This document shows positions 22,541-57,613 of a stretch of DNA of 64,000 bases, in pieces (within the stretch, counting starts at the first letter, position 1; the number at the start of each line of letters is the position of its first letter). The stretch comes from Anaerolineae bacterium. Its GTDB lineage: Bacteria; Chloroflexota; Anaerolineae; UBA4142; SHND01. The stretch is from contig JADZCJ010000044.1 of assembly GCA_020851635.1 (NCBI GenBank), forward strand, positions 62,001-126,000, written 5' to 3'. The notes under the pieces were generated by a model, which did not search any database, was not told the origin of the DNA, and saw only the letters and a program-made list of their open reading frames with translations. Position numbers and translations under genes: made by a program.

Positions 22541-22579
22541 CAAAACCTTCGAGGTCCCCAAAGACCGCGAAGGTTTTTG
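22541..22579 (+). terminator. Intrinsic terminator after the SHMT-like gene
   Basis: Left arm CAAAACCTTCG (22541-22551), right arm CGAAGGTTTTTG (22568-22579), with an inner GGTC/GACC pairing and a T-run in the right arm. Confidence 0.75.
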
Positions 22580-22644
22580 AGCCACCCTTTTCCTCCGAAA
22601 TGCGAGTATTCACCAGACCTAATGCGTTGCATCAAAGGAGTTAT

Positions 22645-23157
22645 ATGGCCAAATCCGTCAAGCCGTCGGCCCGTCATGCGGAATTGCGCGTTCAAACGGT
22701 CAACGATGAAACACTCGTGTATGACGACCGCACCGACAAAGCATATGTTCTCTCACCCTCAGCCGCCGCAGTGTGGCGAGCGTGTGACGGACAGCGCAGT
22801 GTTGCTGAAATCGCACAGTATTTGAGTGCCCAGACTCCCACCGACGTTCAAGTCGTTTGGTATGCGCTCGAACAGTTGAATCCTCTGCTGGACGCCCCCG
22901 TCCAAGCGCCGCAAGGTATCTCGGGTCTCTCACGGCGGCAGTTTCTGGCACGCACCGGGCTGATCGCCGGCGCGGTCACCCTTCCCGTAGTGGTCAGCAT
23001 CATCGCGCCCAAAGCCGCTCACGCCCAGTCGGTCACAACTGTTTGCTGTACCTGCCTAAACAGTGCTCAAATCTCGCTGACCAACTGCCTGGACTGTGTG
23101 CCGTATTGTCAACAGCAGGGTTCTGATGTGGCTGGGTGCACTAACGCGGCTTGTTAA
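22645..23157 (+). CDS. PqqD-like domain fused to Tat signal and Cys-rich tail
   Basis: 170 residues in three parts. (1) Residues ~10-85 are a PqqD-like winged-helix domain (ETLVYDDRTDKAYVLSPSAA, VWRACDGQRSVAEIAQYL), the fold that binds RiPP precursor peptides. (2) Residues 96-128 look like a complete twin-arginine signal: SRRQFL, a hydrophobic stretch, then an AHA site. (3) The last ~40 residues carry eight Cys (134, 135, 137, 148, 151, 155, 165, 170). AAGGAG precedes the ATG. No radical-SAM or other maturase is adjacent. The next gene on the same strand is a Tat lipoprotein multicopper oxidase. The function is unknown; options are a metal- or cofactor-binding exported peptide, or a self-chaperoned RiPP-like precursor. 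Confidence 0.75.
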   Translation: MAKSVKPSARHAELRVQTVNDETLVYDDRTDKAYVLSPSAAAVWRACDGQRSVAEIAQYLSAQTPTDVQVVWYALEQLNPLLDAPVQAPQGISGLSRRQFLARTGLIAGAVTLPVVVSIIAPKAAHAQSVTTVCCTCLNSAQISLTNCLDCVPYCQQQGSDVAGCTNAAC

Positions 23158-55383: not shown

Positions 55384-55585
55384 ATTGGGCGGAATTATAA
55401 AGGGGATTCTTACCGGGGCTAAGCGCGGGGTAATCACTCTTGCAGCGACATTGCTTGACAACAAGTTTTTGACTAGATTTGACCTTCCAAACTATTGAAT
55501 TTCGCTTGATAAGCTGATATGCTGTGCTTGCTCATTTTTGACATTTGACTTTGCTCTCCCAAAACCTTATTTGAATGGAGCTCCA

Positions 55586-57613
55586 ATGCACCCTCTTCGC
55601 GCCGGCTCGCTCGCTATTTTGCTTCTCTCGCTTTTCCTCGCCCCGTTCCCCCCTGCGCCCCCTGTCGCGCACGCCGCACAAACGAACGCCTGTATCTCGA
55701 AATGGACGCCGGTCCCGATGCCGCTCCCGGCAAGCGGCGATCCCGTTTTACGCCGTGTTTCCTCCTCTGCTTCGGACGACGTTTGGGCGGTGGGTTTTTT
55801 GAGGGCTGACGAGAATGTGCCATCGCAAACCTTGATCGAACACTGGGACGGTGCGGAGTGGACGCTTGTCCCCGTTCCTAATGTCGAGGGATACGCAAAC
55901 GAGCTAAACGACGTGGCGGTTCTGACCAAGTCTGACGCATGGGCAGTCGGTTCCGGCACCGCAGACTATATTTCCCATATCCTGATGCTGCATTGGGACG
56001 GCAGTGTATGGACGATTGTCCACCCGTTGAATGGGCAGGCTGATACGGGAGCGCTGGTTTCGGTTTCGGGGGTTGCGACCGACGACGTTTGGGCGGTTGG
56101 CACGCGGCAGGGAAACGCCCTGATTCTGCATTGGGACGGCACAGAATGGCAGAGCGTTCCTTCTCCGATCAATCTGTCATTCACGCGCGTGATCGCTCAA
56201 GCAGCGGATGACGTATGGGCGCTGGGTGTGGATGCGGACCACAACGCGACGATCCTGCATTGGGATGGCTCGACGTGGGCAGTCAGCACATCGTTCCAAC
56301 TCGCGCACGACGAGCCGCAGGCGCCCAACCCCAACGCCCGGTGGGAGGGCGTTTCTGATTTTGTGGTCCCGGCAGCAAATGATATTTGGGTGGTGGGGTA
56401 TGTCTCGTCCAAATATAACCAGTCAGGAAGCCGTTGGCATTGGGACGGAACAAGTTGGAGCTCTTCAGGTGCGGTTGTTGGAACGGGGGGCGGCGGCGGT
56501 GCGATCCAGACGATCGCCGGACTGCGCGCGGATAATCTTTGGGTATTTGCCGAACATCATATTGTCATTCAAACACGCACTCTCAGTCACAGAAGCAGCA
56601 GCGGTTGGCTCGCTTTTGTCATGAACGCAATGATTCCGCAGCTGGATAGCGCAAGCATTACCGCGGTTTCCGACAAAGAATTCTGGATCGTAGGAACAAG
56701 CTATTTTGGTCTCGAGCCCTTTGCAGGGCATGGCATCTTTACCTGTGATGCGCCGCCCGGCGAACGCGCGACCCTCGTTTCTCCTGCCCCCGGTGAAATA
56801 ATTACGCAAATGTACACGGCGTTTGAATGGCAAGCGATTGACAGCTCCAGCCATTACAATCTCGAGGTGACGCGTCCCTATGGAGGCGACCCCGTTGTGA
56901 TTGAACAATTGCTAAATTCCGAATTTGTTTGGGACCGGCATCCCATTCAAAACGGCGAACATACCTGGCGCGTACAGGCATGCAATTACGTCGGATGTGG
57001 TCCGTGGAGCGACCCCGTGACGTGGACGCAGCAAATGCGCGCGCCCGGCGCGCCGCAGTTGCTTTCGCCGCCGTCGGGCACGAGTTTTGCCGCCGACAAT
57101 ATAACCGTCGAATGGACGGAGGTTTCTGAGGCGCTCTGGTACAACGTGGAACTCTACAAGGATGCGCCGGTGGGCCCGGCGTACGCGACGGACCGAATGT
57201 ATGGTGGCATCCATTCATGGTACAGGAATGGTCTTGGAGAAGGACATTATTATTGGCGCGCGCAGGCGTGCAATCCGGGTGGATGCAGCGCCTGGGCGGA
57301 CATGTTCAAGTTCACCATCTTTTATCCCCCGCCGCCGCGTCCTGTCCTGCGTATCCCTGCTCCCAAAGCCGTGGTCAACACGCGCAAACCTCTCTTTGAG
57401 TGGGAGAGCGGCGGGGACGCGCGCATTACGCTGGAGTTGCGCGATCGGTCGAAAAACGGAGCCATAATTGGCACGGTTAAGGTTGGGTATCAAGAGTCTT
57501 TTCGATGGCAGCATAGATTGCCCAACGGCAAATACTATTGGCGCGTCAAGGGCTGTAATGATCACCACTGCAGCCAATGGAGCAAGGGACGCAAGTTTTT
57601 AGTGAACAAGTAA
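55586..57613 (+). CDS. Secreted beta-propeller and fibronectin-like protein
   Basis: 675 residues. A signal peptide (MHPLRAGSLAILLLSLFLAP, cleavage near AHA-AQ) is followed by about six propeller-like repeats (DDVWAVG...LIEHWDG..W..VP) to ~395, then three fibronectin-like domains each ending HTWRVQACN, YYWRAQACN or YYWRVKGCN plus CGPWSD-type turns. It may be a surface or matrix protein. GGAG lies 5 bases before the ATG. It is the only plus-strand gene in the polysaccharide locus. The ending domains resemble those of the 41.9-kb repeat protein only in general design. Confidence 0.8.
   Translation: MHPLRAGSLAILLLSLFLAPFPPAPPVAHAAQTNACISKWTPVPMPLPASGDPVLRRVSSSASDDVWAVGFLRADENVPSQTLIEHWDGAEWTLVPVPNVEGYANELNDVAVLTKSDAWAVGSGTADYISHILMLHWDGSVWTIVHPLNGQADTGALVSVSGVATDDVWAVGTRQGNALILHWDGTEWQSVPSPINLSFTRVIAQAADDVWALGVDADHNATILHWDGSTWAVSTSFQLAHDEPQAPNPNARWEGVSDFVVPAANDIWVVGYVSSKYNQSGSRWHWDGTSWSSSGAVVGTGGGGGAIQTIAGLRADNLWVFAEHHIVIQTRTLSHRSSSGWLAFVMNAMIPQLDSASITAVSDKEFWIVGTSYFGLEPFAGHGIFTCDAPPGERATLVSPAPGEIITQMYTAFEWQAIDSSSHYNLEVTRPYGGDPVVIEQLLNSEFVWDRHPIQNGEHTWRVQACNYVGCGPWSDPVTWTQQMRAPGAPQLLSPPSGTSFAADNITVEWTEVSEALWYNVELYKDAPVGPAYATDRMYGGIHSWYRNGLGEGHYYWRAQACNPGGCSAWADMFKFTIFYPPPPRPVLRIPAPKAVVNTRKPLFEWESGGDARITLELRDRSKNGAIIGTVKVGYQESFRWQHRLPNGKYYWRVKGCNDHHCSQWSKGRKFLVNK

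Follow-up and report, generated by a model that had tools for sequence, protein, structure and literature searches.

The gene studied here lies in a window, the whole stretch of 64,000 nucleotides of Anaerolineae DNA that was analysed, and encodes a protein in which a PqqD-like domain, an internal twin-arginine (Tat) signal and a Cys-rich tail follow one another. The same order is shared by an apparently undescribed, large bacterial family. Our best explanation, to which we assign a probability of roughly 55%, is that the window gene and its four paralogues encode precursors of disulfide-rich mini-proteins, each with an RRE leader of its own on which shared modifying enzymes would dock before the product leaves through Tat.

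Layout and flanks of the window gene

The PqqD-like domain had been called from visible motifs in a first-pass annotation of the DNA letters. This call survived HMM search, where PF05402 matched residues 23-69 with E = 2.4e-8 and 34.6 bits (cut-off 23.4), and the predicted fold agrees with it. The AlphaFold model, computed with an alignment of ten sequences, reached a pLDDT of 85-96 over approximately residues 1-100 and predicted a disordered tail. Its strands (14-19, 22-27 and 32-36) and helices (38-46, 53-61 and 68-77) follow in strict βββ-ααα order, the order by which RREs are defined (PMC12710340). The top Foldseek matches of the model were lasso-peptide B1 proteins with leader peptides (5v1v, 5v1u and 6jx3, TbiB1 among these), at a probability of 1.00 but with E-values of only 0.01-0.05. 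In the model, the domain thus shows the winged-helix βββ-ααα order and the PqqD-like fold of an RRE with putative leader binding. The profiles TIGR03859, for PqqD of PQQ biosynthesis, and TIGR04353 (PqqD_rel_X) gave 22.7 and 15.5 bits, under their cut-offs of 46 and 35, respectively. A phmmer search of the PDB with the single window protein returned chance matches only, ranked over a weak PqqC/D match.

Table 1. Features of the window gene and its flanks (positions in the window)
Feature	Position	Strand	Basis or comment
15-bp inverted repeat, then T run	22542..22577		likely terminator of upstream SHMT-like gene
Ribosome-binding site AAAGGAG	22634..22640	+	sequence; 4 nt 5' of ATG at 22645
Open reading frame, 170 aa	22645..23157	+	reading frame of the window
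PqqD-like / RRE domain, residues 1-94, predicted cytosolic side	22645..22926	+	PF05402, AlphaFold, Foldseek
Internal Tat signal, residues 95-127	22927..23025	+	TIGR01409; SRRQFL, hydrophobic core, AHA signal-peptidase-I type site
Exported tail (predicted), residues 128-170, 8 Cys	23026..23154	+	sequence
Perfect 19-bp inverted repeat, 4-nt loop	23299..23340		between window gene and multicopper oxidase; terminator-like separation

The internal Tat signal and the eight-Cys tail annotated at first pass were both confirmed, TIGR01409 scoring 17.0 bits at residues 95-113, just over its cut-off of 16.7, and all 8 Cys lying in residues 128-170. With its twin-arginine motif, hydrophobic core and AxA site the protein has the sequence features of a Tat substrate and would be exported. 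Tat signals usually stand at the N-terminus, whereas this one starts at residue 95, behind a predicted folded domain. The sole precedent of an internal Tat signal found here is a Streptomyces Rieske protein (PMC13186574). The internal position speaks against our best explanation, as does the alternative that the tail may be exported by Sec, the protein then being a type II membrane protein. A tatC gene is present in the window's genome. In the window genus, TatC (G000:C24:11274-12155) appeared as a two-piece match inside one ORF of about 400 codons, which suggests an insertion or extension.

The window copy is an orphan with an inverted repeat on each flank. The upstream repeat probably terminates the SHMT-like gene, so that the window gene would form its own unit. 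The downstream repeat was not listed by the terminator scan, probably because its T run is short. The next gene is a genuine Tat multicopper oxidase (PF07732, E = 2.8e-43), and this neighbour, together with the eight Cys of the tail, would suit an exported copper- or metal-binding peptide partnering the oxidase, the copper or redox link suggested at first pass. We rejected this link and consider such a peptide very improbable: no multicopper oxidase homologue was found near any of the other family members, a perfect 19-bp repeat lies between the two genes, and tail Cys counts of 6, 10, 14, 18 and 22 are a misfit to the fixed stoichiometry of a metal site. The adjacency is regarded as chance.

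Family members and their tails

The sets searched covered Chloroflexota, Acidobacteriota and a plasmid collection. They yielded 110 distinct full-length members in Chloroflexota and Acidobacteriota, plus one from a Gemmatimonadota isolate, Gemmatirosa kalamazoonensis KBS708, which came from the plasmid collection. A spurious match (L122:9007-9414) and a duplicate (L021:10-438) were left out of the 110; the former is still inside the set of 65 used below for the C-terminal residue. The order of PqqD, Tat signal and tail seen at first pass recurred in this set of 110, with a tail of at least two Cys in 101. The twin Arg was present in 108/110 and PF05402 was found in 104 of the 108 members scanned, so that the three-part architecture is not chance; a strict AxA was seen in 69/110. 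The window's genome holds five copies and genomes of the same genus gave 1 to 5 matches each. In the Pyrinomonadaceae MAG SSF56 (JAIBCC01; here G450, loci L080, L134-L166 and L226) 44 family matches were counted in a single genome. The family is of modest frequency, occurring in 26/297 sampled genomes from the phylum to which the Acidobacteriota MAG G449 belongs, and a search of phages found none.

The RRE fold resembles a winged helix and the predicted topology is N-in/C-out, as would be expected of a ToxR-like membrane one-component regulator, whose cytosolic winged-helix DNA binder would be followed by a transmembrane anchor and by an extracellular sensor tail that varies. Such a regulator appears improbable to us, since the PqqD domain of the window protein is acidic (net charge -3), the best Foldseek matches are leader-bound RREs and not DNA-binding domains, and Pfam calls PqqD throughout nearly all of the members scanned.

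The Cys count was even in 101/101 tails with at least two Cys, over a range of 2-22. Eight of the other nine members have zero tail Cys, and the tail of one, a Gly-rich domain, has a single Cys. The rule was drawn from the first set, with 12 later members serving as hold-out, and all 12 of their tails were even. On the leader tree the tail Cys count shifts 46 times or more, never to odd. As an internal control, Cys was also counted in the PqqD portion of these proteins, where the count was odd in 36 cases and even in 75. The Gemmatirosa tail contains 6 Cys. Even numbers of all sizes, 6, 10, 14, 18 and 22 among them, suit disulfide pairs and are a misfit to a fixed metal site or to thioethers from Cys to Ser/Thr; the strictly even numbers therefore point to disulfides, which would be formed in the product. 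In favour of the disulfide reading we also count a MauE-type protein with a thioredoxin-like part, of a kind concerned with disulfide chemistry. It is encoded by the next gene downstream at L121:10047-11606 and L230:6590-7510, which belong to two phyla, and its thioredoxin-like part is clear in L121 and weak in L230.

PqqE is the binding partner of PqqD. A RiPP with Cys-based crosslinks (thioether, lanthionine), for which a radical SAM enzyme or one of similar kind would be encoded elsewhere, would agree with this pairing and with the Cys-rich core, and such enzymes are usual clients of RREs (PMC7470986). If Cys were joined to Ser/Thr or to carbon positions, an even count in every one of the 101 tails would be unexpected. 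Radical SAM enzymes had been named at first pass, along with copper genes, as neighbours worth tabulating. When the neighbours at 95 loci were scanned for radical SAM motifs, G450 supplied the only two candidates, and no multicopper oxidase was found near any other family member. We accordingly hold a crosslinked product to be hardly probable.

Among the relatives, 14 tails matched the spacing of inhibitor cystine knots (C-x-C-x-CC-x-C-x-C), which the window tail does not, and a few tails gave weak Pfam matches to spider-toxin knottin families. Some tails are not rich in Cys and are collagen-like, Thr/Pro-rich or Gly-rich, so that the leader is not bound to one kind of cargo. In L126:9370-10557 and L127:6651-7793 the PqqD-Tat leader is fused to a Gly-rich domain. 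Two members, presumably these, matched PF12810, the Gly-rich domain of animal ALK/LTK (best E 8.6e-19). Two further members are tailless, L125:9229-9660 and L219:2655-3053, the latter 24 bp from a kinase gene.

Leader and tail differ in divergence. Among the G450 copies (n = 39) mean identity was 47% for the leader and 19% for the tail, and after shuffling of the non-Cys residues tail identity was still 18%; apart from Cys, these tails therefore share almost nothing. The window tail has all 8 Cys in common with the tail of the closest paralogue, whereas the remainder has diverged; dN was 0.72 in the tail, compared with 0.32 in the PqqD part and 0.22 in the Tat part. Because dS of the PqqD part was saturated, we give no dN/dS ratio. 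Such a pairing of conserved leader and hypervariable core is characteristic of peptide precursors.

The tails are also distinct in composition. Lys accounts for 0.6% of tail residues compared with 5.5% in the leader, acidic residues are likewise depleted, and the 43 residues of the window tail contain neither Lys nor Arg. Protection from a gingipain-like C25 peptidase was considered as a possible origin of the Lys/Arg depletion but set aside; acidic residues are depleted too, and a search for C25 peptidases in the 44-copy genome G450 found none. Ser plus Thr make up 19% of tail residues. Ser is rare at the C-terminus, being the last residue in 3/65 members, and C-terminal Ser phosphorylation of the paeninodin kind is not supported by this count.

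Neighbouring genes and the proposed maturation route

Partner genes were counted within 3 kb at 67 loci, G450 excluded. At 48 of these loci an HprK_rel_A-like kinase, an NTP_transf_5 nucleotidyltransferase (PF14907) and/or a C25 gingipain/PorU-like peptidase (PF01364) was present; individually, the kinase was counted at 38 loci, the nucleotidyltransferase at 27 and the peptidase at 10. In 18 loci, kinase, PqqD-Tat gene and NTP_transf_5 follow each other tightly on one strand. The statement at first pass that no maturase is adjacent thus holds for the orphan window copy but not for related loci. TIGR04352 (HprK_rel_A) matched the kinases with E-values down to 1e-16, but with 46.9-60.3 bits, far under the cut-off of 200. 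A P-loop was present in 36 of 43 distinct kinase matches. The AlphaFold model of the kinase was poor (pLDDT 48), and a profile search of solved structures with the kinase returned nothing. Clustering of the recurrent neighbours gave no lasso cyclase or B2 protease family.

In G450 the kinase and NTP_transf_5 genes form a single, directly adjacent pair (L226:6244-8024) with no precursor gene between them, and the 44 family matches are dispersed. G638 likewise has kinase and NTP_transf_5 side by side, the PqqD-Tat gene absent between them, and its 6 matches are dispersed. These genomes have one enzyme pair and many candidate substrates. The kinase of the window's genome adjoins none of the five copies and stands alone on contig C107; the same locus in G005 (L042) keeps the full trio. 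The kinase locus of the window genus adjoins glycosyltransferase-like genes.

The only strong C25 gene in the window's genome comes after one of the five paralogues. C25 peptidases of the PorU/gingipain-like type also stand beside PqqD-Tat genes in Chloroflexota and Acidobacteriota (L031:10101-13685, L032:5023-9114, L033:6129-9161, L035:3747-7412, L036:11418-14819 and L079:11755-14817). Their His and Cys motifs are intact in most, and a role in surface processing or as a sortase is possible. In the window itself, an ORF at 55538-57610 (+) has three repeats that match the C25 neighbour profile, all of them to the profile's C-terminal part alone.

The acidobacterial loci lie within apparent polysaccharide clusters, where sugar epimerase, WecB-like, glycosyltransferase and GlcNAc-1-P-transferase-like genes, as named by eye from the sequence, stand near 12-16 loci. 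This setting, the glycosyltransferase-like genes at the kinase locus of the window genus, the tails that are not Cys-rich and the two tailless members would all agree with a membrane scaffold or delivery module for surface proteins, in which PqqD-Tat anchors or exports diverse surface domains and the kinase and nucleotidyltransferase act elsewhere, for example on a surface polysaccharide made by the glycosyltransferase clusters around many of the loci. Such a role gives no reason for an exported protein to carry an RRE, whose fold binds peptides, or for one kinase-NTP_transf_5 pair to be kept alongside dozens of dispersed copies. We regard it as rather unlikely.

For a precursor with its own RRE leader, the following route can be envisaged. 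The N-terminal 94 residues would stay in the cytosol as leader and docking module, and the RRE would hold the kinase and the nucleotidyltransferase on the precursor, leading to its modification ahead of export. The internal Tat signal (residues 95-127) would then carry the C-terminal 43 residues out, a signal-peptidase cut at AHA (AxA) would free the tail, and oxidation of its eight Cys outside would give four disulfides. In the window's genome and in the expanded genomes the kinase, encoded elsewhere, would act in trans on several precursors. The phosphorylation site is unlikely to be a C-terminal Ser (3/65). The first-pass idea of a self-carried precursor or cytosolic loading domain is therefore the best reading, strengthened by the conserved leader, the hypervariable tail and the kinase and nucleotidyltransferase partners, but its metal cargo was not borne out.

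Several observations stand against this precursor reading. In the window's genome the kinase is away from all five copies, and the two tailless members would be unexpected for a pure precursor. A few tails are not Cys-rich, and few members end in the Ser that lasso kinases are known to modify. The kinases score far under the TIGR04352 cut-off and their model is poor. Tentatively, the family may represent a new RiPP-like class with cis-RRE precursors, in which hypervariable disulfide mini-proteins are phosphorylated, and perhaps glycosylated, by an HprK-like kinase and NTP_transf_5 that the leader recruits, and then leave through the internal Tat signal, with PorU-like C25 processing or surface attachment in some lineages.

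Relation to described systems

RREs serve as class-independent markers of peptide modification. In RRE surveys they were either free or fused to enzymes (PMC7470986, PMC12710340). According to a 2025 survey, 21% of PF05402 proteins exceed the length of a discrete RRE but have no further annotation (PMC12710340), and the PqqD-Tat family may be part of this dark fraction. Among the open-access papers searched, none was found that joins PqqD with twin-arginine precursors, and the term 'HprK-related kinase' occurred in none, which is not proof of novelty. If our reading is true, a large family found in at least three phyla that joins an RRE to its putative substrate and to an export signal, and whose core evolves in the manner of toxins or antimicrobials, would follow a new precursor logic and could supply numerous small proteins rich in disulfides. 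The predicted placing of a folded domain ahead of a Tat signal can be put to the test in this family, and the poorly known HprK-like kinases and NTP_transf_5 enzymes gain a concrete candidate substrate.

Knottin mini-proteins and conopeptide-style precursors likewise combine a conserved leader with a fast-evolving tail that keeps its Cys framework, and 14 tails of the family are knot-spaced; here, by contrast, the proteins are bacterial, the leader is an RRE and the window tail lacks the knot spacing. Prochlorosins, where one ProcM serves many dispersed precursors, are alike in logic only, with a conserved leader, a hypervariable Cys core and a single enzyme set (PMC10783134), whereas the present family has no known LanM, an RRE-type leader, disulfide parity and predicted Tat export. 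The HPr-rel-A system is alike in that a PqqD-family protein is encoded beside a kinase of this superfamily (here at 38/67 loci within 3 kb, the window copy not being one of them). It differs in that our proteins score far under its curated cut-offs (47-60 versus 200 bits and 15.5 versus 35) and in that the PqqD protein here carries a Tat signal and a tail predicted to be exported.

In some lasso peptides, a kinase K (HprK-like) phosphorylates the C-terminal Ser and a nucleotidyltransferase N adds hexoses to the phosphate (PMC8498205). In contrast to these systems, the RRE described here is fused to the putative substrate and not free, and that substrate is predicted to be Tat-exported and disulfide-rich and has no preference for a C-terminal Ser. 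The likeness to the K/N lasso peptides paeninodin and pseudomycoidin lies in the co-encoded set of a B1/PqqD-type RRE, an HprK-like kinase and a nucleotidyltransferase (PMC8498205).
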